DNA of 64,000 nt from Flavobacteriales bacterium (lineage in GTDB: Bacteria > Bacteroidota > Bacteroidia > Flavobacteriales_C > GCA-002722245). Where the stretch lies: the NCBI GenBank assembly GCA_002717515.1, contig PBEC01000021.1:48091-112090 (forward strand), read 5' to 3'. The translations under genes and the position numbers were made by a program. Shown piece by piece: positions 39,774-56,401 of this stretch. The notes beneath the pieces were generated by a model. The model ran no database searches. It had not been told where the DNA came from and saw only the letters and a list, made by a program, of their open reading frames with translations. Every line of letters starts with the position of its first letter. Position 1 is the first letter of the stretch.

Positions 39774-40436
39774 ATGCAAACCAGTACCACAGAGGATTAT
39801 CTCAAAGCTATTTTTAAACTGAGTGGAATTTACAAAAAAGGAGTTTCAACCAACTCAATTGCTGAAGAACTTTCAACAAAAGCATCTTCAGTTTCAGATA
39901 TGGTTAAAAAACTATCGGAAAAAAAATTAGTTGATTATGTAAAGTACCAAGGAACTACCCTAACAAAAGAAGGTGAAAACATTGCCCTTAAAGTAATTCG
40001 AAAGCATCGCTTATGGGAAGTTTTTTTAGTAGAAAAATTAAAATTTGGATGGGATGAAATACATGAAATTGCCGAACAACTGGAACATATAAAGTCTCCT
40101 AAACTTATTGATAAACTTGATGCTCACCTTGGTTTTCCTAAAAAAGACCCTCACGGGGATCCTATACCCGACAAAAACGGTCTTTTTCCAACAATTAAAA
40201 AACTTAAACTTAATGAGCTGAAAATAGGAGAAAAAGCAATTCTAACAGGTGTTTCAGAAGATTCAAAAGACTTTTTAAGCTACCTCGATACCATTGGGTT
40301 AAAACTCGGTTCATCAATAGAAGTTTTGGACTACTTCAAATTCGACAAATCACTAAAAGTAAAAATAAACAACCGTTCTGATTTAACTTTCTCAGACTTG
40401 GTTGCCAATAACCTCAACATTTCAAAAGAAAACTAA
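39774..40436 (+). CDS. DtxR/MntR family metal-dependent transcriptional regulator
   Basis: STTEDYLKAIFKLSG...STNSIAEELSTKASSVSDMVKKLSEKKLVDYVKYQGTTLT, RKHRLWEVFLVEKL; C-terminal FeoA/SH3-like domain. Confidence 0.93.
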   Translation: MQTSTTEDYLKAIFKLSGIYKKGVSTNSIAEELSTKASSVSDMVKKLSEKKLVDYVKYQGTTLTKEGENIALKVIRKHRLWEVFLVEKLKFGWDEIHEIAEQLEHIKSPKLIDKLDAHLGFPKKDPHGDPIPDKNGLFPTIKKLKLNELKIGEKAILTGVSEDSKDFLSYLDTIGLKLGSSIEVLDYFKFDKSLKVKINNRSDLTFSDLVANNLNISKEN

Positions 40437-40437
40437 C

Positions 40438-41364
40438 ATGTCGAGAAAACATCTCTTACGACTGGTATTTTTAATTTCCTTAACAACTTCGCTTTGGAGT
40501 TGTAATGAAAGACCACCATCAAGCAACAAAAAAAATGTCGTTTGCACTACCAATGTAATAGCTGATGCAATTAAAAACATACTCCCTTCCAATTTCGAAG
40601 TAAATGCACTAATGGGTGCAGGTGTTGACCCTCATACCTATAAAAGTAAAACTTCAGAAATGAAAAAAATGCTTCAGGCTGATGCAATCGTTTACAACGG
40701 TATTCATTTCGAGTCTAATTTGATTGACGCAATCAATGAAATAAGCAAAACAGGTTTTGTTATTGGTTTAGGAAACATTGTTTCGAAGAATCGTCTTATA
40801 AAAACAACTGATTTTGGTTCCGCTTACGACCCTCATTTCTGGCACGATGTTAATCTATTTTCTGAGGCAATTAAATTAGCAGGCAAAGAGTTCGCAAATA
40901 AGTTCCCAACTTCAAAAAACTACATTGATTCGGCTACCGAAGCATATACAAATCGTCTTCATGAGCTTGAAAATCAAGTACGAAGTCAGATTCTAAAAAT
41001 TCCTGACTCAAGTCGCGTTCTTATTACCGCTCACGATGCTTTTGGATATTATGGAAGGCTTTTCAATATCAAAGTAAAAGGTGTACAAGGAATATCTACA
41101 GCTTCGGATGTTTCACTTCGTGGAATTACCGAGCTTACTAAGTATATAATATCAAAGAAAATACCATCAATATTTGTAGAAAATTCTGTTTCACAAAAAA
41201 ATATCAAGGCAATTATTGAGGGATGTAAATCGAAAGGGATACAACTAAAAATGGGTGAAAAATTATACAGCGACGGTTTAGGAGACATGGAGAGTGGTGC
41301 TGATACTTACATTAAAATGATTCAAAAAAATACCAATTCAATAGTCCGAGCCCTTACAAAATGA
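40438..41364 (+). CDS. Metal ABC transporter substrate-binding lipoprotein (ZnuA/MntA family)
   Basis: Lipobox TSLWSCNE; GAGVDPHTYKSKTSEMKKM; AYDPHFWHDV; TAHDAFGYYGRLF metal-binding motifs. Confidence 0.93.
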   Translation: MSRKHLLRLVFLISLTTSLWSCNERPPSSNKKNVVCTTNVIADAIKNILPSNFEVNALMGAGVDPHTYKSKTSEMKKMLQADAIVYNGIHFESNLIDAINEISKTGFVIGLGNIVSKNRLIKTTDFGSAYDPHFWHDVNLFSEAIKLAGKEFANKFPTSKNYIDSATEAYTNRLHELENQVRSQILKIPDSSRVLITAHDAFGYYGRLFNIKVKGVQGISTASDVSLRGITELTKYIISKKIPSIFVENSVSQKNIKAIIEGCKSKGIQLKMGEKLYSDGLGDMESGADTYIKMIQKNTNSIVRALTK

Positions 41365-42152
41365 TAAAAAATATTGACGACCCAATCCTTGAAGTTCATG
41401 ATTTAACGGTTGCTTATGATAATGAGCCCGTTCTTTGGAATGCTGATTTTTCTGTACCAAAAGGTAAGATGATTGGTATTGTAGGACCCAACGGTGCTGG
41501 AAAATCTACACTTCTTAAATCTATTATGGGACTCGTACCTATAGCGAGTGGATTCGTAAAGCTGTTTAATGAATCGTTAAAAAAAACGCGATCTAAAATT
41601 GCTTATGTTCCCCAAAAAGAATCAGTTGACTGGGATTTCCCTGCAACAGTATTAGATGTTGTAGAAATGGGGCGTTACAGCCAAAAAAAACTTTTTAAAA
41701 GGCTAACCAAAAGAGATAAAGAAATTGCAATTGAAGCACTTCAAAAAGTTAAAATGATGGAGTTTGCTAAAAAACATATTTCTGAACTATCAGGAGGTCA
41801 GCAACAGCGTGTTTTTATTGCAAGAGCTTTAGCTCAAGAAGCAGAAATATACTTCATGGATGAACCCTTCTCTGGTGTTGATGTAAATAGTGAGAAAGCA
41901 ATTGTAGACGTTTTATTACAGCTTCAAAAAGAAGAAAAAACAATTTTTGTTGTTCATCACGATCTACAATCGGCAATCAACTACTTTGACTGGTTTATAT
42001 TAATCAATAAAAGAGTTATTGCAAGTGGTCCGATTGATGATGTGTTCACTCCAGAATTACTAAAAAAGACTTACGGGGGAAATCTCACTCTATTAGATCA
42101 AATGGGACAAGTTTTTAAACACAAACAATTTCCAATTAGAGAAGATAAATGA
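41361..42152 (+). CDS. Metal ABC transporter ATP-binding protein
   Basis: Walker A GPNGAGKSTLL, signature LSGGQQQRVFIARAL, Walker B IYFMDEPFSGVD. Confidence 0.95.
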   Translation: MIKNIDDPILEVHDLTVAYDNEPVLWNADFSVPKGKMIGIVGPNGAGKSTLLKSIMGLVPIASGFVKLFNESLKKTRSKIAYVPQKESVDWDFPATVLDVVEMGRYSQKKLFKRLTKRDKEIAIEALQKVKMMEFAKKHISELSGGQQQRVFIARALAQEAEIYFMDEPFSGVDVNSEKAIVDVLLQLQKEEKTIFVVHHDLQSAINYFDWFILINKRVIASGPIDDVFTPELLKKTYGGNLTLLDQMGQVFKHKQFPIREDK

Positions 42153-43444
42153 AATTTTGGCAAGATTTTATATATTTTTTTTCTCTACAGGATGCCACAA
42201 TCAACAACGTTCTTTTTGGAACCATGATTCTGGGATTCACATGCGGACTTGTAGGTGTTTTAGTAGTTTTGAGTAAAAAAGCCTTAATCGTTGATGCTGT
42301 TTCTCATTCAGTTTTACCAGGAATATGCATAGGTTTTATGTTTGCCGGCACTAAAAACCCTATATATTTAGTTTCTGGAGGAATGTTAGCTGGAGGCCTC
42401 GCAGTATATTTGGTGGATTGGATATCAAGAATATCTCGAATAAAAAAGGATGCCTCTATTGCTATAACTCTATCCGTTCTTTTTAGTGTAGGTGTCGTAT
42501 TATTGAATTTAATTCAACATTCGGGAAATAGTAATCAAAGTGGTTTAACCGACTTTCTTTTTGGAAAAGCGGCAACAATTATAGCTTCTGACTTATATGT
42601 TTTTGGTACCATTGGAATAGTCGTGATGATAACAATAACCGTATTTTATCAGCACTTTAAAATCAGTTTATTTGATGATGGTTTTGCAAAAACAATTGGT
42701 CTAAATGAAAAACTAACACAAGGGTTAATCTCGGGATTAATAATAATAAGTACCGCTGTGGGTATTCAAACTGTCGGCGTAATTTTGATGAGTGCTCTAA
42801 TAATAACACCTGCATCCTCTGCTCTATTCTGGACTAATAACTTCAAGAAAGCAATTGTATTATCAGGAATTTTTGCAACCGTAAGTAGTCTGATAGGAGT
42901 TTTAATATCCTTCTTATACATAGATATGCCAACAGGTCCATGGATAATTGTGACACTATCTATTTTTGCTCTTTTCTCTGCATTCTTTTCAAAAAAAGGT
43001 TTAATGACCAAAAAAATTAAGAGATTCAAAAACAAAAGAAAAATGCTATCAGATAATTTATTAAAGGCACTTTACACAATAGATGAAAAAGAAAATAAAT
43101 TAAAAAAGGAAAGAACGTTATCCGAAATAAATATGGAAAACTTAGTTCCTGAACGTCATTTGAATCGTGGCCTTAAAATTTTAAAAACTAAACAATATAT
43201 AATTAAAAAAGGAAATTTATGGGCCTTAACTGATCATGGGCTCAATAAAGCTCAGAAAATTATAAGGGCACATAACTTATGGGAGCTATACATGGAAAAC
43301 TTTATGGAAATACAACCAGACCATGTTCACGATAGCGCAGAGTCAATTGAACATATATTACCCCCTGAGTTGGAAGCTAAACTCATTAAAAAAATTAAAT
43401 CTAAGGTTGATGCACTTGAAGACCTAAATAAACCAAAGGATTGA
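42149..43444 (+). CDS. Metal ABC transporter permease with C-terminal DtxR-like wHTH/dimerisation region
   Basis: N-terminal ABC-3 permease (DAVSHSVLPGICIGF); C-terminal LKILKTKQYIIKKGNLWALTDHGLNKAQKIIRAHNLWELYMENFMEIQPDHVHDSAESIEHILPPELEAKL resembles MntR. Confidence 0.92.
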   Translation: MKFWQDFIYFFSLQDATINNVLFGTMILGFTCGLVGVLVVLSKKALIVDAVSHSVLPGICIGFMFAGTKNPIYLVSGGMLAGGLAVYLVDWISRISRIKKDASIAITLSVLFSVGVVLLNLIQHSGNSNQSGLTDFLFGKAATIIASDLYVFGTIGIVVMITITVFYQHFKISLFDDGFAKTIGLNEKLTQGLISGLIIISTAVGIQTVGVILMSALIITPASSALFWTNNFKKAIVLSGIFATVSSLIGVLISFLYIDMPTGPWIIVTLSIFALFSAFFSKKGLMTKKIKRFKNKRKMLSDNLLKALYTIDEKENKLKKERTLSEINMENLVPERHLNRGLKILKTKQYIIKKGNLWALTDHGLNKAQKIIRAHNLWELYMENFMEIQPDHVHDSAESIEHILPPELEAKLIKKIKSKVDALEDLNKPKD

Positions 43445-44292
43445 TGTTTGATTTTTGGATCATATTAACTGCTTGTATAATTGCTTTAAACTCTAGTTTA
43501 CTGGGTAGTTTTTTGGTGTTAAAAAGGTTAAGTCTTATTGGTGACGCCTTATCGCATGCAGTGCTTCCTGGTATTGTAATTGCCTTTTTAATCTCTGGCC
43601 AAATAAATTCATTTTGGATTTTACTCGGTGCTAGTAGCTTTGGAATTATAGCCATTCTTTTAATAGATTGGTTAAATCGGAAAGGCGGTTTTGCAAAGGA
43701 TAGTTCAATAGGCATTATTTACACTTTACTTTTTGCAGTTGGAATCATACTAATTACATCAAAAGCGAAAAATGCAGATATTGACGTTGATTGTGTTTTA
43801 TTTGGAGACATTAATACTGTACCCATGGTTCCTAAAGTTTTTGGAATACCAGAGCCAACTTTGAATTTGATGATTATTTCATTTTCTACTCTTTATATTG
43901 TTCTATTAGGATTGAAAGGTTTTAAAATAAGTAGTTTTGACAAGGAGTACGCGAAAACTCTCGGCATATCGATACCCTTTTGGAATTATTTACTGATGGG
44001 ACTCTCAAGTGTATCCGCTGTATTCAGTTTCGATAGTGTTGGGGCAATTATGGTTATTGGTCTTTTGGTTATCCCTCCTTCTTTTGCCAATTTACTTACT
44101 CGAAAACTTTCAGTTTTTCTTTTAATCTCAGTTACTTTTGGAGTTTTGAGTTGTATTTTCGGACACCTAATTGCTTTAGTTCTCGATATTCCAACAATTC
44201 CAACAGTAGGTATATTGATGGGGTTAATATTAATGTTAACACTTTTGATACAATTGGTAAAAAAAAGATCTTCAAAAACGCTGAACATCTAG
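43441..44292 (+). CDS. Metal ABC transporter permease (ABC-3 family)
   Basis: LIGDALSHAVLPGIVIAFLISG; multi-TM; follows the first permease with ATGA-type overlap. Confidence 0.93.
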   Translation: MMFDFWIILTACIIALNSSLLGSFLVLKRLSLIGDALSHAVLPGIVIAFLISGQINSFWILLGASSFGIIAILLIDWLNRKGGFAKDSSIGIIYTLLFAVGIILITSKAKNADIDVDCVLFGDINTVPMVPKVFGIPEPTLNLMIISFSTLYIVLLGLKGFKISSFDKEYAKTLGISIPFWNYLLMGLSSVSAVFSFDSVGAIMVIGLLVIPPSFANLLTRKLSVFLLISVTFGVLSCIFGHLIALVLDIPTIPTVGILMGLILMLTLLIQLVKKRSSKTLNI

Positions 44293-44327
44293 AGGAATAA
44301 GCTATCCTTGTTTTTCAATTTTTTACT

Positions 44328-45854
44328 ATGAGGCAAATCATTATTCTTTTTTTATTTTTTAATTCAATACTTAATGCGCAATACTTACTACCACAGCCTC
44401 AAGAGTACAATTTATTGCAGGGAAAATTTAAGATAACAGAAGAAATAAAAGTAAGAATTCCAAACTCATCCGAGGATTTATACCAATACACCAGTCGTTT
44501 TATTGAGCGAATGCAGTATAAATCTGGAATAATTTTTAAAACCCATGAACCACAGGACACATCTACTTCAAAGGAAATAGTCATCATTACCAATAAATTT
44601 TCAGAGAATTTAGATTTAGAAACAAATGAATCCTATTCCATTAATATTTCTTCAAGTAGTATAAAGATAACTTCTGAGAACAATGTAGGAGCATACAGAG
44701 CTATGGAAACACTTCTTCAATTAATAAACACGGATAAAGGAGAAGCTTTTTTCATTAACTGCAATATAATTGACAAGCCAAGATTCAAGTGGAGAGGATT
44801 ATTAGTAGATGTCTGTCGACATTGGATTCCATTAGATATAATCAAACGAAATATCGACGCTATGGCATCTGTCAAGATGAATGTTCTCCACCTTCATTTA
44901 ACAGATGACCAAGGTTTCAGGATTGAATCTAAAAAATTTCCGAAACTCCATGAAATGGGAAGCGATGGAAAATATTACACACAAAATGAAATTAAAGACA
45001 TTATAAAGTACGCTAATGAACGAGGAGTTAGGGTTGTTCCGGAATTTGATATTCCTGGACACATATCCAGCTGGCTTGTTGGCTATCCAAAACTTGCTTC
45101 CATTGATCAAAACTATGAATTACCAAAAGGTTATGGAGTTTTCAAAGCTACTCTAAATCCATCTCAAGATTTTACTTATCGTTTTTTAGACACTCTTTTA
45201 ACCGAAATGTGTTTATTGTTTCCGGACAAATATTTTCATATTGGAGGAGATGAAATCTTAGTAAACGATTGGAATAAAAACAAAAAAATTCAAAGATACA
45301 AAGACAAGTATATGCTTACATCAAATAAAGATTTGCATGCACATTTCAACAAAAAAATTCTGTCTATTCTTTCCAGAAATAAAAAAATAATGATGGGGTG
45401 GGATGACATATATAATCCAAAACTGCCCAACTCAATCACTGTTCAATTCTGGCGAAGTAAAGAGAGTTTGTTCAACGCTGCAAAAAATGGATATAACAGT
45501 ATTTTATCAAATGGATACTATTTAGATAAAGTCAATAGAATTGAAAATTATTATAAAAACACTCCCCTGCCTAAAGGAAATTCATTAACAGAACAAGAGC
45601 AAAAAATGATTTTGGGTGGTGAAGCCACAATGTGGACTGAAATCGTAAATTACCGAACAATTGAATCAAGAATATGGCCCTCTGCTCTCGCGATAGCTGA
45701 AAGACTTTGGAGTAATGATAAAGAATGTAACATAGATACTTTGTATAAAAAAATCCCAATTATTTCAAGTCAGTTGGAAGAATTTGGTTTGATGCACTTA
45801 AATTGTCAAGGCGTCATGTTAAGAATGTTGTCCAGAAATTCAGTAATTGATTAA
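44328..45854 (+). CDS. GH20 beta-N-acetylhexosaminidase, truncated by an in-frame TAA
   Basis: FKWRGLLVDVCRHWIP, HLHLTDDQGFRIESKKFPKL, FHIGGDEILVND motifs; catalytic domain appears complete. Confidence 0.88.
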   Translation: MRQIIILFLFFNSILNAQYLLPQPQEYNLLQGKFKITEEIKVRIPNSSEDLYQYTSRFIERMQYKSGIIFKTHEPQDTSTSKEIVIITNKFSENLDLETNESYSINISSSSIKITSENNVGAYRAMETLLQLINTDKGEAFFINCNIIDKPRFKWRGLLVDVCRHWIPLDIIKRNIDAMASVKMNVLHLHLTDDQGFRIESKKFPKLHEMGSDGKYYTQNEIKDIIKYANERGVRVVPEFDIPGHISSWLVGYPKLASIDQNYELPKGYGVFKATLNPSQDFTYRFLDTLLTEMCLLFPDKYFHIGGDEILVNDWNKNKKIQRYKDKYMLTSNKDLHAHFNKKILSILSRNKKIMMGWDDIYNPKLPNSITVQFWRSKESLFNAAKNGYNSILSNGYYLDKVNRIENYYKNTPLPKGNSLTEQEQKMILGGEATMWTEIVNYRTIESRIWPSALAIAERLWSNDKECNIDTLYKKIPIISSQLEEFGLMHLNCQGVMLRMLSRNSVID

Positions 45855-46334
45855 TGGAAACCTTTTATATCCGTACTTGAACCAATCAGTGGATATGAGA
45901 GGCATCAGTTTCTGAAAAAACAAAATAGATATACTACCGCATCTCCTCTAAATCGAATTGCAGATGCTTGCTATGTTGAAAGTTTTACAGCAAGAAAATT
46001 TAATCAAATGGTCAAAAAAAATTGCTTTTCGGAAGGGTATTGTAAACAAAAACAAGAGATAAAGTATTGGCTTTCCTTGTGGACTAAGTCGGCGGATCAT
46101 TTCACAAAAATACCAAGCAAATCGCTTGCATTAGAAGAGGTAAGCCCTCTTGCTTTAATAGTTCAAGAACTTTGTGAATTAACATGGAGAAAAGTGAACA
46201 GCCCCAATGAGCTTAGTGAAAATGAAAACAAAAGAGCTCACAAATTAATCTCAGATATTGTTTCCTATGATTTAGACGTTCGATTCGCGCCAATAGATGG
46301 GATTAAAATTATATTTAATTATAAAGCTTCCTAA
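45855..46334 (+). pseudogene. C-terminal region of the same GH20 gene, in the same frame after TAA 45852-45854
   Basis: After the stop the frame reads WKPFISVLEPISGYERHQFLKKQNRYTTASPLNRIADACYVESFTARKFNQMVKK... without a stop to 46334. Confidence 0.75.
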
Positions 46335-46452
46335 CTTAATTACAATACCGAAAAATCAATTTCGCTTGTAATTAAAGAGTCGTATAATATCTTATTTATT
46401 ACGAATAATAACTTTTACTGAGCGGTCAAGGCTTATTTTTTAATTTAAATAA

Positions 46453-47010
46453 ATGAAATTATTTAGAAAACGTAAAAAGCGCACGCGACTTGATAAATTT
46501 GTAAATACTCTCATAATTTTTGTTTTTATTCTTTTAATCCTGCCTCAGTCTTTTGTTTTACCTGTTGAGGGAATGAAAAAAAACGACTATAATCAAAATA
46601 GTTATTGGTATTATCCATGGGGAAAATCCGGGACTCACAAAGGAGTAGATATTTTTGGTAGAAAAGGAACGAATGTCGTTTCATCCGTTCGAGGTTTTAC
46701 TTTCGCAACCGGCAATGGAAAACGCTCAGGAAGATACGTCATAATTTTAGGACCAAAATTACGCTTCCATTATTTCGCGCACTTAAATTCCATAGAAACT
46801 AAAGTCGGGGAATGGAACAGTTTGGGAGAGAAAATCGGTACGTTAGGCAACTCAGGAAACGCAAAGGGAAAACCGGACCACCTTCACTACTCTATTATTT
46901 CATGGCTTCCTCATTTTTGGAATATTGACAATGAACCACAAGGATATCGAAAAATGTTTTACCTAAACCCTATTGACTATTTAAATGATTGCTATAATAT
47001 ACCGAAATAA
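46453..47010 (+). CDS. M23 family metallopeptidase
   Basis: GTHKGVDIFGRKGTNVVSSVRG, HYFAHLNSIETKVG, GNSGNAKGKPDHLHYSI. Confidence 0.88.
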   Translation: MKLFRKRKKRTRLDKFVNTLIIFVFILLILPQSFVLPVEGMKKNDYNQNSYWYYPWGKSGTHKGVDIFGRKGTNVVSSVRGFTFATGNGKRSGRYVIILGPKLRFHYFAHLNSIETKVGEWNSLGEKIGTLGNSGNAKGKPDHLHYSIISWLPHFWNIDNEPQGYRKMFYLNPIDYLNDCYNIPK

Positions 47011-47087
47011 TTCACTGTTATTCAATGTGCGAATAATCAGATTATAATTTACCCCAAATAGGATTACCTCGTCTCCTTTTTATATTA

Positions 47088-47095
47088 TATATTTG
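47088..47095 (+). promoter_or_regulatory. Candidate -7 promoter element for the his operon
   Basis: TATATTTG matches TAnnTTTG, just upstream of the His leader peptide. No clear -33 element seen. Confidence 0.45.
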
Positions 47096-47103
47096 TAATC
47101 GAA

Positions 47104-47151
47104 TTGAATAAGAAAATACACATACATCATCATTCAGGAATACTTCGGTAA
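47104..47151 (+). CDS. Putative histidine leader peptide MNKKIHIHHHSGILR
   Basis: ttg aat aag aaa ata cac ata cat cat cat tca gga ata ctt cgg taa: 4 His in 5 codons, directly upstream of a terminator and hisG. TTG start is inferred. Confidence 0.65.
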   Translation: MNKKIHIHHHSGILR

Positions 47152-47218
47152 GCGGGGCAATGATTTTGTATGCATAAAAATAGATCAATGAGCCACGCTT
47201 TAAAGCGTGGCTTTTTAC
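47150..47218 (+). promoter_or_regulatory. Transcription attenuator of the his operon
   Basis: Terminator stem AGCCACGC-TTTAAA-GCGTGGCT (47191-47212) then TTTTTACTTT. Competing antiterminator AAGCGGGGC (47150-47158) pairs with GCCACGCTT (47192-47200) with one mismatch. Confidence 0.7.
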
Positions 47219-47238
47219 TTTTACAACAACATAAAAAA

Positions 47239-48099
47239 ATGGAAAAGACTTTAAAAATAGCAATTCAAAAAAAAGGAAGATTAAACGAGGAATCCATTCA
47301 ACTCCTCAAACAATGCGGAGTGAAATTTAACAACGGTCGTGACCAACTTAAAGTAACCTCCCATAGTTTTCCTGCAGAGCTCTTATTTTTGAGAAACTCT
47401 GACATTCCAAACTATGTGAAAGACGGAGTTGCAGACATAGCTATTTTAGGAGAAAATACGATAATCGAAAAAGGAGTGAAATTAGATATTATTGAAAAGC
47501 TTGGATTTTCAAAATGTAAACTATCTCTAGCTGTACCAAAAAATATAAATTACTCCGATATTAAATTTTTTGAAGGAAAAAAAATTGCGACATCATACCC
47601 AAATACTCTTCAAAAATATTTAGATAAAAAAGGTGTTAATGCAGAAATTCATGTCATTTCTGGATCTGTTGAAATTGCGCCAAATATTGGTTTAGCAGAT
47701 GGAATATGTGATTTAGTTTCATCTGGGTCAACACTTTTCAAAAACGGGCTGAAAGAATGCGATGAAATTCTTAATTCAGAAGCTTGCTTGGTTGCTACAC
47801 CTGGTTTAACAGGAGAAAAAAAAGAAATTTTAGACAGGCTTATGTTTAGAATAAATGCCGTTCATTCAGCAAAAAAGAACAAATACGTCTTACTTAATGC
47901 ACCAAACGATAAATTAAATGCTATTATTTCATGTCTGCCCGGTATGAAATCTCCAACTGTCTTGCCTTTAGCACAAGAGGGATGGAGTTCGGTTCATTCG
48001 GTTATTAAAGAAGGAGATTTTTGGAATTCAATTGATGAATTAAAAGCTAATGGTGCTCAAGGAATTCTTATAGTTCCAATTGAGAAAATGGTCATTTAA
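47239..48099 (+). CDS. hisG: ATP phosphoribosyltransferase
   Basis: LKIAIQKKGRLNEESIQLL; SGSVEIAPNIGLADGICDLVSSGSTL. Start MEKTLKIAIQKKG at 47239; the ORF-track start (47170) lies within the attenuator. Confidence 0.95.
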   Translation: MEKTLKIAIQKKGRLNEESIQLLKQCGVKFNNGRDQLKVTSHSFPAELLFLRNSDIPNYVKDGVADIAILGENTIIEKGVKLDIIEKLGFSKCKLSLAVPKNINYSDIKFFEGKKIATSYPNTLQKYLDKKGVNAEIHVISGSVEIAPNIGLADGICDLVSSGSTLFKNGLKECDEILNSEACLVATPGLTGEKKEILDRLMFRINAVHSAKKNKYVLLNAPNDKLNAIISCLPGMKSPTVLPLAQEGWSSVHSVIKEGDFWNSIDELKANGAQGILIVPIEKMVI

Positions 48100-48116
48100 G
48101 TAAATGGTAAACAAAT

Positions 48117-49400
48117 ATGAAAACAATAAAATATCCAGATAGAAAAAGTTGGGAAAAACTGCTGAAAAGACCGACACAAAAGAAAGCCAACCTAGAAGCA
48201 TTAGTAAATGATGTTTTCAATGAAATTAAAACAAATGGTGATAAAGCTTTGATCGAGCTCACCAAAAAATTCGATGGTGCAGACTTAATTAATATTCAGG
48301 TCTCAAAACAAGAAATAAAGGAAGCTGAAAGCTCCACTCCATCAGAATTAAAAGATGCCATTGACAATGCCATAAGAAACATCTTCAATTTTCATAAGGC
48401 TCAAGAAGCTGTCGAAGAACGAGTAGAAACTCAGCCTGGTGTTGAATGCTGGAGAAAAGTTACTCCAATAGAAAAAGTTGGACTTTATATTCCTGGGGGA
48501 ACCGCACCTCTTTTCAGTACTGTTTTGATGTTGGCTATTCCAGCAAAAATAGCAGGTTGTAAAGAAATTGTCCTATGTACTCCTCCAGATGAAAATGGCA
48601 ATGTTAACCCAGCGATTCTTTATGCCGCCTCCTCAGTTGGTTGTACTAAAATTTTTAAACTGGGGGGGATTCAAGCAATTGGTGCCATGACATACGGTTC
48701 TGAGTCCGTTCCTTCGGTTTATAAAATATTTGGTCCGGGAAATCAATATGTTACTGCGGCAAAACAGCTTGCAAGTCTCGACGGAATTGCTATTGATATG
48801 CCTGCGGGTCCAAGTGAAGTATTAGCATACGCTGATGAAACTGGAAATGCCGAATTCATTGCTGCTGATTTACTTTCACAGGCAGAGCACGGAGCCGATT
48901 CACAAGTGATTTTTGTGACTTGCGTAGAGCCGTTAATTGAACAAGTAAAATCAGCTGTGATTAAGCAGTTGATTGACTTACCAAGAAAGGAAATCGCAAT
49001 TAAAGCGCTAGACAATTCGGTTCTTATACTTCTAAATAATGAAAAGGAAGCTTTAGACCTCATAAATCAATACGGACCTGAACATTTAATAATCGGAGCA
49101 AAAGATGAAGATTTTTTTTCAGAAGGTATTACAAATGCAGGTTCTGTATTTTTAGGTAATTATACTCCTGAAAGCGCAGGAGATTACGCCTCTGGAACTA
49201 ATCATACACTTCCAACAAATGGATATGCAAAATCCTACAGCGGAGTATCTTTGGATTCTTACACAAAAAAAATCACCTATCAAAAAATCAGTAAAGAAGG
49301 TCTTAAGTCTCTTGGCCCTGTTATCGAAATAATGGCAGAAGCAGAAGAGTTATTTGCCCATAAAAACGCTGTTACACTAAGGCTAAAAGAATTAAACTAA
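48117..49400 (+). CDS. hisD: Histidinol dehydrogenase
   Basis: VGLYIPGGTAPLFSTVLMLAIPAKIAGC, GPGNQYVTAAK, DMPAGPSEVL, ADLLSQAEHG. Confidence 0.97.
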   Translation: MKTIKYPDRKSWEKLLKRPTQKKANLEALVNDVFNEIKTNGDKALIELTKKFDGADLINIQVSKQEIKEAESSTPSELKDAIDNAIRNIFNFHKAQEAVEERVETQPGVECWRKVTPIEKVGLYIPGGTAPLFSTVLMLAIPAKIAGCKEIVLCTPPDENGNVNPAILYAASSVGCTKIFKLGGIQAIGAMTYGSESVPSVYKIFGPGNQYVTAAKQLASLDGIAIDMPAGPSEVLAYADETGNAEFIAADLLSQAEHGADSQVIFVTCVEPLIEQVKSAVIKQLIDLPRKEIAIKALDNSVLILLNNEKEALDLINQYGPEHLIIGAKDEDFFSEGITNAGSVFLGNYTPESAGDYASGTNHTLPTNGYAKSYSGVSLDSYTKKITYQKISKEGLKSLGPVIEIMAEAEELFAHKNAVTLRLKELN

Positions 49401-49401
49401 A

Positions 49402-50442
49402 ATGATTTTCGATTTAAATAATATTACTCGTCCCTCCGTTAAAAATTTAAAGCCATATTCCTCAGCCAGAGATGAATTCACAGGTAAAGCTGAAGTTTAC
49501 CTTGATGCTAATGAAAACCCCTTCGATACTGGTTTAAATAGATATCCTGACCCGTATCAACAAAAATTAAAGAATAAAATTTCAAAAATTAAAAACATCG
49601 ACGCGAGAAATATTATTCTTGGCAACGGTAGTGATGAAGTAATTGATTTACTTTTTAGAGCATTTTGTGAACCAGGAGAAGACGAGGTGATTATTCACCC
49701 TCCTACTTACGGAATGTATCAAGTTTGTGCAGACGTGAATAATGTTAAAACGAATAAGGTTCCACTAACTTCAGATTTTGAACTTGATGAAACAAAATTG
49801 TTCGAAGCGATAAATAAGAAATCCAAGATTATTTGGTTTTGTTCACCAAATAACCCAACAGGAAATACTCTCGATCCAACAAGTATAAAAAACACGTTAA
49901 ATTCTTTTAATGGAATAGTCGTTATTGATGAAGCTTATATTGATTTTAGCGACTCACAAAGTTGGATTGATTTTCTTGATTTCTATCCTAATTTATTCAT
50001 TATTCAAACACTTAGTAAGGCGTGGGGACTGGCAGGTCTGCGATTGGGCATGGGTTTCGCTTCAGCTGAAATTATATCAGTTTTGAATAAAATAAAACCT
50101 CCATATAATGTCAATAGCCTCACCCAAGAAAAAGCAATTGAGTCACTTGGATATCTCGATGAAAAAAATGAAACTGTTGACGTTATACTCAATGAGAAAA
50201 ATAGCCTCATAAACGATTTAAGTAATATTCCAACTGTTGAAAAAATTTACCCAAGTGACACAAATTTTATTTTGGTTAAAATTAATGACGCAACAAATAT
50301 TTATAATAAACTTGTTGAACAGTCCATCATTGTAAGAAATCGTTCAAATGTGAAACTATGTGAAGAATGTTTAAGGATAACAGTTGGTAAATCAGAGGAG
50401 AATAACAAACTTATTGAAGCTATTAAAGAAATTATAAAATGA
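49402..50442 (+). CDS. hisC: Histidinol-phosphate aminotransferase
   Basis: [54 protein letters not shown]. Confidence 0.95.
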
Positions 50443-51578
50443 AAAAAGCACTTTTTATAGACAGAGACGGAACCCTAGTTATTGAACCGCCTGTTGATTA
50501 TCAGTTAGATTCATTAGAAAAACTGGAGTTTTATCCGGGAGTTTTCAGGTGGTTGGGAGAAATTGTACGAAAACTGGATTTTGAAATTGTAATGGTGAGT
50601 AATCAAGACGGTTTAGGTACTGAATCTTTTCCTGAAGATAATTTCTATCCCCCGCAAAATGCAATGCTGAAAGCTTTTGAAAACGAAGGAATTACTTTTA
50701 ATGATGTTTTAATTGACAAAACCTTTCCTCATGAAAATGCACCAACTCGTAAACCAAATACAGGACTTCTCAAAACAAAATATCTGAATGGTGATTACGA
50801 CCTATCCAGTTCGTATGTAATTGGAGATCGAATAACCGATGTTGAATTGGCCAAAAATATTGGTGCAAAAGCAATTTGGATAAATCATGATAACAAAAAA
50901 GGACTCAAAGAAATCGCCAGTAAAATTGATGAACTGAAAGGTTTTATTGCGATTGAAACTACCGACTGGAAAGATATTTACCTTCACCTTTCCGCTGGCG
51001 AAAGAAAATATTCTGTACAAAGAAACACAAAAGAAACTCAAATAGCCATTGATATAGATTTAGATGGAACAGGAATTGGAAACATCAATACAGGCCTTGG
51101 TTTTTTTGATCACATGCTGGAACAAATCGCAAAACATTCAGGAATTAATTTAAGAATTGAAGTTAATGGAGATTTGGATATTGATGAACATCATACCATC
51201 GAGGATACTGCTTTGGCTCTTGGTGAAGCATTCAACAAGGCACTTGGTAATAAAATAGGTATTGAACGCTATGGATATTCTTTACCGATGGATGATTGTC
51301 TTTGTCAGGTTTCATTAGACTTCGGCGGACGTCCCTGGATAGTTTGGGATGCAGAATTCAAAAGAGAAAAAATTGGAGAAATGCCCACAGAAATGTTTTT
51401 TCATTTTTTCAAATCCTTTTCAGATACAGCTCAAGCCAACCTTAACATAAAAGCTGAAGGGAAAAATGAACATCATAAAATAGAAGGTATATTTAAAGCC
51501 TTGGCAAGAGCAATTAAAATGGCTCTTAAAAGAGACCCCGAACATCTGATTTTACCGTCTACAAAGGGAACTTTATGA
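50439..51578 (+). CDS. hisB: Bifunctional histidinol-phosphatase / imidazoleglycerol-phosphate dehydratase
   Basis: HAD N-terminus [16 protein letters not shown]-terminal [17 protein letters not shown] and [16 protein letters not shown]. Confidence 0.96.
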
Positions 51579-51605
51579 AAACTATATTACAATAATTTCA
51601 TAAAA

Positions 51606-51628
51606 AAAGGAGGATATAATCCTCCTTT
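51606..51628. terminator. Terminator between convergent hisB and proteorhodopsin genes
   Basis: AAAGGAGGATATAATCCTCCTTT hairpin with flanking A and T runs. Confidence 0.8.
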
Positions 51629-51650
51629 CTCATGTTTTAAAACAAGTTTG

Positions 51651-52373
51651 CTATGCAGCTTGTTGATTTGATGACGAATTAACTGCTAAGCTATAAACAA
51701 CTAAACCAAAACCAATTTTGTTTATGGCATCACCGATATTATAAATCACATCCATTTCTAGACCACCGAAAATACCATCGTACCACCCCGGTGTACCAGC
51801 CATATAACCTATTGGATATATCGCCCATCCAATAAGAACAAACTTACAAAGGATATTGTGAGCGTTTAAGACGTGTCCACCTGCCTGAGTGGCAAGAGAC
51901 TTTGCCTCTCCAAAAAAGATTAAATAAACAATGTAAAAGTATGCTGCTCCAGAAACACCACCCCAAATAGCAGCGTTATCTCTGTCAACACCTTCACCCC
52001 AGTAACCCGTTACTAACATAACCACTGAAGCTCCAATTAAAGTCCACATTAACTTTTTCGTTGCACCTGCAACTTTTAAAATTAAGTAAAACTCAACACA
52101 CATTAAAGGAACAGTAAGAATCCAGTCAACATACCTAAAGAATGTTGGCGATTCTCCATTTTCCGCCCAATAATCCCTCATGTAGTAATAGTGAACTGCA
52201 GCGATAAAAGTTATCAATCCAGAAACTAAAATAGAAGTACGCCACTTTTTATCAAATGAATTCATTGAAAAAAAGAAGAAAACGGATGCAGCCATCATGG
52301 CCATACAACCGACAAAAAACGTAAAGCCAACGTAATCGTTGGTGGCTAATTTGCTGATTAATAATGCATTCAT
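51651..52373 (-). CDS. Proteorhodopsin, predicted green-tuned proton pump
   Basis: RYVDWILTVPLMCVEFYLIL (Asp/Thr/Glu pump residues, Met at tuning position); VHYYYMRDYW; retinal-lysine region GDAINKIGFGLVVYSLA. Confidence 0.96.
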   Translation of the reverse strand: MNALLISKLATNDYVGFTFFVGCMAMMAASVFFFFSMNSFDKKWRTSILVSGLITFIAAVHYYYMRDYWAENGESPTFFRYVDWILTVPLMCVEFYLILKVAGATKKLMWTLIGASVVMLVTGYWGEGVDRDNAAIWGGVSGAAYFYIVYLIFFGEAKSLATQAGGHVLNAHNILCKFVLIGWAIYPIGYMAGTPGWYDGIFGGLEMDVIYNIGDAINKIGFGLVVYSLAVNSSSNQQAA

Positions 52374-52723
52374 GATTCTTTTTTTTATTGGTTTATATAC
52401 CCCAATAAAATGAAATTATTTTAATTATGCACGTAAAAGGAGTAATATTTGACTGATCTTATTAGAGATAAAATGTTGAAAAAGGTTCAAAAAGCCTGTA
52501 AACATTAGCTTGTCTTACAGTTTAATTTTGTTTAATTTTTTTTAAAATTAGTTAAACATTTTTTTTACTAAAAGAGAATTTCTATAGAATTTCAGTAAAA
52601 AAGAAAGGTACGAAATGGTTTATTCTCATAAAATCATCAAATTAACTTAATAAGAAACTAAAACCAACCTCCTCGAAATGTTTTCCGAGTCTTATACCAA
52701 AAGAAATCCGAAATATATGTAAG

Positions 52724-55399
52724 TTACTTAATTACAATATTACTGGTTAAATCAAGAACAGAAACTCTACTTCGTTTACCATTCGGATAAAAGGCCACTA
52801 CCTTTACCTTCTTTCCTGTAACAGCAACTGGCTGATTATAAACAGAGGATTGTAAAGTTGGCTCAGTTCCATCTGTTGTATAGGTGAACTTAGCTCCTGG
52901 ATAATTGGTATTGACATATAAAACACCTTCTTTAAGTTCTATTCCCGGAGGCGCAACACGATAATTAACACCACCATTCAAGTAAGTCAGCCTCGGTAAT
53001 TCAAAATAACCTATCCTGCTGGCAAATTGATTCCAATCTTTATTCAACATTTCAAAACGGATACTGTCTTCTTCAACCGAAGTCCACTTTGGGTCAGCCG
53101 CCCATGCCCTTTCAACCAATCCCAACATTTTAGGAAAGATATAATATTCGAGCATCTCATTTCCTTTAACTGTTTCCGCCCACAATTGCCCTTGAATTCC
53201 TTGAATGTTCGATTTTCCTTTTTCGGTTAAACGAACATGGTTTTTAAAGTCTTCCTTAACATCTAACCTAACACCGTCTCTATTGGTTAAAGGTTCCGCA
53301 TAAACATTCAAAGGAATGAACTCCCATGCTTTTTTTGTATCAACAAATCCACCCCAATAGTAACCAGGATCGGCTGGATCTTTGTCGTATGCCAAATCAA
53401 AATAATTATTTGAAACATTTGAAAGGACTACCTTGAAACCAGCATTCGCTAACTTATACCCTCTGTCCTCATCTCCCCAGCTCCAAACTGTATTCCATAC
53501 ATAAGGAGCAAATCCTCTTTGATTGAAATCCTCATTTAAATCAACTTTAGTATCGCCTTCCTCGTTGTAACTTTTCATCAAACCAATTTCTTCCCAACCT
53601 GCGGTCACTATGTTTCTGTCCTCTAATATTTTGGAAAATCGATCTACAAAGTAGTAAAACAACTGTTCAGAGTTTTCGTAATCGTCATCCGACTCGAGTA
53701 AAGCATTACATTTCGGGGACTTTTTCCATGCTCCGTGCTCTGGATCTTTCTTTGATGGGTGAGGCACCTCATCACCACCAATATGAACTTGTTTCAACGT
53801 TAGACCAGCCTCCTCGTACATAGAAATCACTTCATCAGTAACTTTTGATAAGAATCGATATGTTGACTCCTGACAAACACAAACAACATTATCGTCGTAT
53901 AGCTGGATTGATCTATACCTGGAAGCATCATTAGGATCATGTAAAAGGTATTCATTGGCTTCAGCCTGTTTTCCTTCTGCAATTAAACTTTTCTGTCGAG
54001 ATTTCATGGATACGATTGCAGCTCTTGCATGACCAGGAAAATCTAATTCTGGAATTACTTCAATGTGTCTTTCTTTAGCGTATTTCAAAATATCAATAAA
54101 ATCTTCCCTTGAATAATAACCTGTACCCCACGACTCATCTTCATTAGGGTGTGGTCCCGAACCGTATGCAGGATTCAACATTTCTGTTTCGTTTTTAGAA
54201 TATCCTCTCCTGGAACCAACTTCAGTTAACTCAGGAAGACCTGGTATTTGAAGTCGCCAACCTTCATCATCGGTAATGTGAAAGTGAAATTTATTCAATT
54301 TATAAAAAGACATTAAATCGATTAAGTTTAATACCGTTTCTTTCGTTGAGAAATTTCTTACAACATCCAAATGCATTCCTCTATATTCAAAACGCGGGGC
54401 GTCTTCAATATCCACAAAAACCAATTCTGCTGATCCCGACTTGGAAGCAAGATCATCAGAAGATATCAAAGCTCTCAAACTTTGAACTCCGTAAAATACT
54501 CCTGCTGGATTTGAAGCCTTAATATTGATTCCTTTTTCACCTATTGATAACGCATAAGATTCAGAAGATAAAGAGTTTTCAAAAACCACTTCCTTGATAA
54601 GCACGATGTCACCATCATTACCTTCAACTACTTTTGACTCAATACCAACATCAGATTTTAGTTTTTTTGACAAAAATTTTGCTTCAGATTCGAATGACTT
54701 CTCGTAAGATATTGTTAAGCCCGTTTTAAGCTCTAATTTTCCGTTTGATTCTTCATATTTTATTGGAGTTGGAATAATTTTAACCAGATTTTTAGGATTT
54801 TCAAAAGATAGTGTTTTATTAAAATCATATCTGGATTGGGGGGTTGGAACGGGTAAAGGATCATTTTTGAAACGGTCAGTTTGTTCTTTTTTAACCAATG
54901 GACTGTAGGAAACATTCGTTAAAACTTCAGGTTTTGATTCAATTCCTTCGGCATTGGTAAAAACAATAAACAAACCGTTCGGTGCATCTACGTCCTTAAT
55001 GGCCCAGGCATCACTCTCAAAAGAGACAATTGTCTCTTCTCCTTTTTCCAACCTTGGAAAAAACGCTGTAGGTTCAAGCCTAAAATAATCACCGTTGACA
55101 TGAGTTATTTTTATGTTTTTAGAAGTACTTTCCGTTATTACCCTTCTTGGTTGATGAAAATAAATTGCCCATCCTGTGCTGTCCAAAGTTTTTGAAGAGT
55201 TATTGGTAATCATAAACTCCGACAAATACGAAGTTTTACCTTTATAACCATTCGACACCAAATTCCAGAAAATGTCAATCTCAGTTCCTATAGGGCGCTC
55301 TATAGTTGTAACAGTTGTCTGTCCCACACAGGATTGAAAGAAGATTGGAATTGATAAACAAATGGAAAGTATAGAGGCTTTTAAATAGGATGATTTCAT
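52724..55399 (-). CDS. GH20 beta-N-acetylhexosaminidase (chitobiase-like) lipoprotein
   Basis: Lipobox FFQSCVGQ; N-terminal chitobiase-like domain; FHITDDEGWRLQIPGLPEL, IPELDFPGHARAA, VHIGGDEVPH; C-terminal YTTDGTEPT domain. Confidence 0.93.
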   Translation of the reverse strand: MKSSYLKASILSICLSIPIFFQSCVGQTTVTTIERPIGTEIDIFWNLVSNGYKGKTSYLSEFMITNNSSKTLDSTGWAIYFHQPRRVITESTSKNIKITHVNGDYFRLEPTAFFPRLEKGEETIVSFESDAWAIKDVDAPNGLFIVFTNAEGIESKPEVLTNVSYSPLVKKEQTDRFKNDPLPVPTPQSRYDFNKTLSFENPKNLVKIIPTPIKYEESNGKLELKTGLTISYEKSFESEAKFLSKKLKSDVGIESKVVEGNDGDIVLIKEVVFENSLSSESYALSIGEKGINIKASNPAGVFYGVQSLRALISSDDLASKSGSAELVFVDIEDAPRFEYRGMHLDVVRNFSTKETVLNLIDLMSFYKLNKFHFHITDDEGWRLQIPGLPELTEVGSRRGYSKNETEMLNPAYGSGPHPNEDESWGTGYYSREDFIDILKYAKERHIEVIPELDFPGHARAAIVSMKSRQKSLIAEGKQAEANEYLLHDPNDASRYRSIQLYDDNVVCVCQESTYRFLSKVTDEVISMYEEAGLTLKQVHIGGDEVPHPSKKDPEHGAWKKSPKCNALLESDDDYENSEQLFYYFVDRFSKILEDRNIVTAGWEEIGLMKSYNEEGDTKVDLNEDFNQRGFAPYVWNTVWSWGDEDRGYKLANAGFKVVLSNVSNNYFDLAYDKDPADPGYYWGGFVDTKKAWEFIPLNVYAEPLTNRDGVRLDVKEDFKNHVRLTEKGKSNIQGIQGQLWAETVKGNEMLEYYIFPKMLGLVERAWAADPKWTSVEEDSIRFEMLNKDWNQFASRIGYFELPRLTYLNGGVNYRVAPPGIELKEGVLYVNTNYPGAKFTYTTDGTEPTLQSSVYNQPVAVTGKKVKVVAFYPNGKRSRVSVLDLTSNIVIK

Positions 55400-55519
55400 T
55401 ACTGATTATTTTGTGACAAAAGTAACAATATTAAAGGGGAAACAAAATTTTTTTACCACCACAGCATTATTAAATTTTAGTTGTAATAAACTTATATTTG
55501 GAACTTCAAACATTGTGCC

Positions 55520-56401
55520 ATGATTTACTGTTTAGAAAACGATTTTGTACGTGTGCAAATAAAGGGAGTTGGTGCCGAACTCTGTAGCTATTACGACAAA
55601 CAAACTGAAAGAGAAGTAATGTGGCAGGCGAACCCTGTACATTGGAAACGTCATGCTCCTATTTTATTCCCAATTGTAGGAAAAGTTAAAAACAACTCAT
55701 ATAAATTAGAAAATAATACCTATAACCTTAATCAGCATGGTTTTGCCAGAGATCAAAATTTCAACCTGATTCAGCAATCAGTCTCTTCAATTACACTTGG
55801 AATTAAAGCAAACGAAGAGACTAAAAAGATTTTTCCATTTGATTTTTATCTACGAGTTAAATACATTTTGAGTCAAAAAGAACTTAAAGTGATTTATGAG
55901 GTTGAAAACTTCTCTCAACAAAACATATATTTCTGTATAGGTGCTCATCCTGGCTTCAATTGCCCATTTGACAACAAAACGACTTTTTCAGACTACCAAC
56001 TCAATTTTGAAAAAAAAGAATCTTCCGATCGAATTTTACTAAACTCAAACGGCTTTAGAACTGGAAAAAGATCAAATAAGTGGCTATCCAATCAATCTAT
56101 TCAATTAACTGAGAATTTATTTCTTGAGGATGCACTTATTTTTGACGATTTAGAAAGCAGATATTTATTAATTGAATCCCCAAAAATAAATGAAAAAGTA
56201 AAAGTGGGTTGGCACAACTATCCCCATATGGGAATTTGGAAACCCTTGAACAACGCTCCATTTATTTGTATTGAACCATGGAATGGTATGGCGGACGAAG
56301 ACAATTTAAACAACGACTTTAAGGATAAATACGGTGTGTTAAATTTAAATCCAGATAAAAACTTTGAGTGTTTTTACACCATCGAAAACATTATCGAATG
56401 A
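55520..56401 (+). CDS. Aldose 1-epimerase family protein (LacX-like)
   Basis: KHQ-like NLNQHGFARDQNF; IGAHPGFNCPF; GIWKPLNNAPFICIEPWNGMAD. Confidence 0.85.
   Translation: MIYCLENDFVRVQIKGVGAELCSYYDKQTEREVMWQANPVHWKRHAPILFPIVGKVKNNSYKLENNTYNLNQHGFARDQNFNLIQQSVSSITLGIKANEETKKIFPFDFYLRVKYILSQKELKVIYEVENFSQQNIYFCIGAHPGFNCPFDNKTTFSDYQLNFEKKESSDRILLNSNGFRTGKRSNKWLSNQSIQLTENLFLEDALIFDDLESRYLLIESPKINEKVKVGWHNYPHMGIWKPLNNAPFICIEPWNGMADEDNLNNDFKDKYGVLNLNPDKNFECFYTIENIIE

Follow-up and report, generated by a model that had tools for sequence, protein, structure and literature searches.

The region upstream of hisG in this marine Flavobacteriales bacterium raises the question of whether the hisGDCB operon is controlled by a transcription attenuator resembling HisL. 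Within the window (the whole stretch of 64,000 nt analysed here), the operon lies on the forward strand and comprises hisG (47239-48099), which is of the long form with a C-terminal regulatory domain (TIGR00070, TIGR03455), followed by hisD (48117-49400), hisC (49402-50442) and the bifunctional hisB (50439-51578), for which TIGR00069, TIGR01141 and NF003937 are matched jointly. A longer call by the ORF tool, starting hisG at ATG 47170, was rejected because the terminator described below would then fall inside the gene; hisG of relatives begins at the position of 47239. The his genes are split in this genome: hisH-hisA-hisF are located on another contig (C17, about 229304-229873), and no His leader was found in the 400 nt upstream of that cluster. 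Beta-hexosaminidase-like proteins, of the GH20 type by eye, flank the operon at 44328-45854 (forward strand; a weak NCBIfam match) and 52724-55399 (reverse strand). A rhodopsin-like seven-helix protein, proteorhodopsin-type by eye and without an NCBIfam match, adjoins hisB downstream in convergent orientation (51651-52373, reverse strand).

A first-pass annotation of the sequence had proposed a His-rich leader ORF of 15 codons ahead of hisG. This ORF (47104-47151, forward strand) can be read directly, from TTG 47104 to the TAA at 47149-47151, and would encode MNKKIHIHHHSGILR. Its putative regulatory codons, CAC ATA CAT CAT CAT (47119-47133), include four His in five. The annotation had also remarked that the leader lacks an ATG and had taken TTG 47104 as its start; this was upheld, no other in-frame ATG, GTG or TTG being present between the preceding stop codon and TTG 47104. 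To this we add that such a start is unusual: 109 of 115 leaders found in genomes of the class begin with ATG, as does the aligned codon of the nearest relative.

Just upstream lies a -7 promoter box of the Bacteroidota sigma-A type, TATATTTG (TAnnTTTG, 47088-47095, forward strand), identified from the sequence and by comparison. A clear -33 TTTG was not found in the window; one is present in the nearest relative and in the sister genus. In F. psychrophilum, the TAnnTTTG box occupies positions -12 to -5 (PMC9723704); the same position here would place the transcription start (+1) at 47100 and make the 5' UTR about 4 nt long. The same prediction from box position gives mostly 0-20 nt in other genomes. 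In 91 of 115 genomes the 60 nt preceding the leader start contain a TAnnTTTG box, compared to 2.2% of control windows, and this spacing supports the almost leaderless transcript suggested by the annotation. Such short leaders would be unusual, since 5' UTRs of less than 10 nt represent about 3.7% in B. thetaiotaomicron and leaderless messages 5.5% of the mapped mRNAs in F. psychrophilum (PMC9723704). With a TTG start on such a nearly leaderless RNA and no visible -33 box, translation of the leader may be inefficient in this strain, or the TTG may be an assembly error.

The strong hairpin and T-run reported before hisG were confirmed as an intrinsic terminator of ten base pairs, AGCCACGC-TTTAAA-GCGTGGCT (47190-47213, forward strand), in which 47190-47199 pairs with 47204-47213 around a TTAA loop. 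Its T-rich tail runs to 47216, and the hisG ATG is 25 nt downstream of the terminator. It is the longest of four terminator-like sites found in 1.3 kb, where 0.5 would be expected. For the leader RNA as a whole (47100-47226) the folding energy is -30.8 kcal/mol (z -4.07), with none of 200 shuffled sequences as good. The 5' arm of the putative antiterminator, AAGCGGGGC (47150-47158), begins in the leader stop codon and can pair, with one G-A mismatch, with GCCACGCTT (47192-47200) in the terminator 5' arm; including a short extension, this fold (47147-47203) reaches -12.6 kcal/mol. In the window alone the pairing is not significant against leader shuffles (z -1.3, p=0.12) and was rejected as insufficient single-sequence evidence, so that the case rests on the comparison with relatives. 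The terminator is the more stable of the two structures (about -16.4 kcal/mol in the window, compared to -12.6 for the antiterminator; median gap over 88 genomes 3.1 kcal/mol), so that the antiterminator would have to win kinetically. In classical attenuators read-through is likewise kinetic.

While the terminator/antiterminator logic of the first-pass annotation was supported, a further hairpin, which would complete the switch by closing its off state, had escaped it. In the minimum free energy fold of 47100-47226, a stretch covering the His codons (47121-47134) pairs with 47159-47172 (AATGAT..TGTATG), enclosing an inner hairpin (47143-47157) formed by CUUCG (47143-47147) and CGGGG (47153-47157). 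The inner hairpin of this 1:2 structure hides the antiterminator arm AAGCGGGGC, and the element is thus predicted to have the three classic alternatives: a 1:2 protector, a 2:3 antiterminator and a 3:4 terminator. The pairing of His codons with the spacer has a z of -4.1 in the window and is significant (p<0.05) in 44% of the 88 genomes with a strong terminator.

An alignment of the regions upstream of hisG, proposed by the annotation as a check, was made with close relatives, namely those in which the region is present: two from the same genus and five from a sister genus. In all seven, a His-rich leader begins with ATG, an antiterminator arm sits at its stop codon and a terminator precedes hisG, at conserved spacing. 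Leader peptides aligned among relatives include MNKQKHIHHHFTTLPRA and MKLHINIHHHHTINLG (both with ATG) and MNFSVHHHHENNSGQ, among others. The pairing is the same and the paired sequences differ between genera: AGCG.GGC with GCCACGCT in one and TAGGTGAGC with GCCCGCCTA in the other. The sequence that pairs with the His codons (TGAT or similar, then TGTAT) aligns across both genera compared.

The arrangement also extends to most of the class. Of 296 genomes sampled from the class, 135 yielded a hisG, and 130 upstream regions were analysed. At least four His within seven codons of a leader ORF are seen in 100 of the 130 regions and in none of the 130 corresponding antisense regions, which also bears on the His-rich ORF of the window itself; with a threshold of at least three His in seven codons the counts are 115 and 6. 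About three in four of the hisG-bearing genomes in this sample have the His leader. Outside the class, in the same phylum, a leader with at least four His was observed in 20 of 40 genomes compared to 0 of 40 in antisense. Between leader and hisG, 88 of the 115 leader-bearing genomes have a terminator with an energy of at most -9 kcal/mol. The named genomes with hisG that were scanned comprise one close relative, which carries the leader, and Vibrionaceae, which were used as controls. Genome-wide counts of CAYCAYCAY and TGGTGGTGG patterns were uninformative.

The 88 genomes with a strong terminator were used to analyse co-variation between the terminator and the stretch separating it from the last His codon. 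This stretch pairs with the terminator 5' arm with a mean z of -2.4, compared to -0.36 with the 3' arm and -0.05 for upstream DNA of equal length. Cognate antiterminator-terminator pairs average -14.1 kcal/mol and permuted partners -10.7, none of 5000 permutations reaching the observed mean (n=88); as this test includes related genomes, the version with one genome per family is the fairer number, and over 30 families it gives -13.96 vs -10.85 kcal/mol without overlap in 1000 draws. The compensatory changes that the annotation had suggested looking for are thus seen across 30 families, and the comparison upholds the antiterminator that the window alone supports weakly. In an unrestricted search of the whole leader, 86 of the 88 genomes have their best arm downstream of the last His codon (at a median distance of 14 nt), and in 82 of the 88 it overlaps the region that a ribosome at the leader stop codon would occupy. 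This geometry fits the proposal that stalling on the His codons exposes the arm and that a ribosome at the stop masks it. Several families place the arm within the coding end of the leader, where the recurrent C-terminal residues SQA are encoded CTCAAGC or CTCAGGC and the partner in the terminator is GTTTGAG or GTCTGAG. That these codons double as antiterminator arm would explain the conserved look of this part of the peptide.

Taken together, the parts, their conservation, co-variation and geometry, all of which were computed, make it very probable that the element is a ribosome-mediated transcription attenuator of hisGDCB. The HisL-type logic claimed in the first-pass annotation for a member of the Bacteroidota is supported by the comparison, with a trp-like three-stem design. 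In the model that we infer, which extends to stalling, kinetics, transcription start and histidine response, RNA polymerase would start near 47100 and a ribosome would load almost at the 5' end and translate the His-rich leader. When charged tRNA-His is short, the ribosome would stall on the His codons (47119-47133) and break the 1:2 hairpin; since its front edge would reach only about 47140-47147, AAGCGGGGC (47150-47158) would stay free and pair with GCCACGCTT (47192-47200) as this emerges, the antiterminator would block the terminator, and hisGDCB would be transcribed. When histidine is plentiful, the ribosome would either reach the stop codon and cover the antiterminator arm, or leave and allow the His codons to pair with 47159-47172; in both cases the terminator would form. 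Because this layout is found again across the phylum, histidine synthesis in these bacteria is most likely turned on when their ribosomes run short of histidine, a form of control well characterised in E. coli and its relatives.

Other readings of the locus can be weighed against the same observations. The hairpin could simply terminate transcription of the peptidase gene upstream (46453-47010), which is on the same strand as the leader and ends 180 nt before the hairpin, with a His-rich ORF arising by chance. Ahead of hisG in other genomes, whose upstream sequence differs, the leader ORF, hairpin and pairing are found again at rates far above controls; on this comparison we rejected the idea, which retains next to no likelihood. 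The signal could also be read by another route, such as control of hisG translation, Rho-dependent termination, or action in trans of the leader peptide or of the released leader RNA. Leaders in some families (f38, f14 and f2) have His codons without an intrinsic terminator, so that another readout may exist in the phylum, and in Sinorhizobium a trp leader peptide is reported to act in trans (PMC7298713). Against this, the window and 87 other genomes of the class have a strong terminator with a 5' arm that co-varies with the leader, which makes such a route very unlikely at this locus.

Somewhat less remote, and still unlikely, is that the attenuator was inherited and is impaired in this strain by the change from ATG to TTG and the missing -33 box, or that the TTG is an assembly error. 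If the leader were nearly untranslated, the 1:2 hairpin and the terminator would form by default and hisGDCB expression would be low and blind to histidine. In favour of this reading are the predominance of ATG among the leaders of the class, the ATG aligned in the nearest relative and the general dependence of leaderless messages on AUG. On the other hand, bacteria do use TTG starts, and every part of the switch (His codons, antiterminator, 1:2 hairpin and terminator) has been kept, as would be expected under continued selection.

How does this attenuator relate to known systems? A scan of positions 40000-56000 (16 kb around the site) with Rfam gave chance matches only and no match to a T-box family. 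For RF00514 (His_leader), nothing near hisG in the window matched at E<5, and no match reached the gathering score in the ten Bacteroidota loci scanned, whereas three Vibrionaceae control loci scored 76-86 bits; the element thus lies outside Rfam His_leader as modelled. RF01692, the Bacteroid-trp motif of Bacteroidetes (PMC2864571), was not matched at hisG or at trpE of the same genome, the latter having no Rfam match. Like HisL of E. coli, Salmonella and Vibrio, the element combines a His-rich leader, a terminator before hisG, a mutually exclusive antiterminator and a hairpin involving the His codons. It differs in being compact (38 nt from stop codon to terminator stem), in the overlap of the antiterminator arm with the stop codon and in its very short predicted 5' UTR (about 4 nt). 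It shares the 1:2, 2:3, 3:4 logic of TrpL-type elements (E. coli trp; RF01692) and is predicted to sense His rather than Trp. The hisZ/hisS* leader peptides of Bacilli are likewise encoded by a short ORF that contains a run of His codons and precedes a histidine-related gene; these are in another phylum and precede other genes, and a convergent or transferred origin has been discussed for them (PMC2965389).

Within the phylum, the closest precedent is in F. psychrophilum, for which one sentence mentions 'strong clues' of leader-peptide attenuation upstream of amino-acid operons, his being unnamed in the main text (PMC9723704); the hints concern the same class of operons with the same -7 box. 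Together with a general remark on short ORFs in long 5' UTRs of B. thetaiotaomicron, this was all that we found in the open-access literature that might describe a Bacteroidota his attenuator, and an earlier description is possible. The element is broadly distributed and apparently little described.

Some leaders in the class depart from this organisation. Twelve genomes of family f38 (G046, G083, G112, G140, G163, G186, G207, G227, G245, G261, G278 and G295; loci L130, L134-L136 and L138-L145) have a His-rich leader before hisG, such as MEQYKLHHLHLHHHHFVVNR, and no intrinsic terminator. Several of these regions carry a conserved GTATGTTTCTACG-like stretch after the leader stop codon. In families f14, f2 and f47 (G095, G123, G234, G267, G284, G189, G280 and G172; loci L051, L031, L061, L045, L059, L088, L068 and L125), long leader peptides end in HHFHHSS or similar, again without an intrinsic terminator; a small hairpin (TTCCTC..GAGGAA) lies over the stop codon and possibly reflects another attenuation mechanism. 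In the genome of the window, the region upstream of trpE (contig C2, L189) includes TATATTTGTCAAATG, a leader with WW, MTTNKNNTWWCHSL, and a strong terminator. Because the -7 box is so close, the trpE message may also be leaderless, and from its sequence this strain appears to use the same attenuator design for tryptophan.

On balance we lean towards a wider interpretation, in which ribosome-mediated attenuation would be an old, phylum-wide control of amino-acid operons in Bacteroidota, acting on nearly leaderless mRNAs with the leader ORF about 0-20 nt from the 5' end and the antiterminator arm in its last codons and stop, while the terminator-less His leaders of some families would use a different readout. 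A 2010 study was aware of peptide-coupled attenuators only in Proteobacteria and Actinobacteria, to which it added Firmicutes (PMC2965389); a gamma-proteobacterial origin has been suggested for the Rfam attenuator families (PMC3766115), and in a survey of Bacteroidota his genes the sole mention of attenuation that we found concerns enterobacteria (PMC8305728). With a His leader in Bacteroidota, this mainly proteobacterial picture of amino-acid operon attenuators changes, and histidine synthesis gains a simple, testable regulatory model in a phylum that is prominent in the sea and in the gut and that mostly initiates translation without Shine-Dalgarno sequences.
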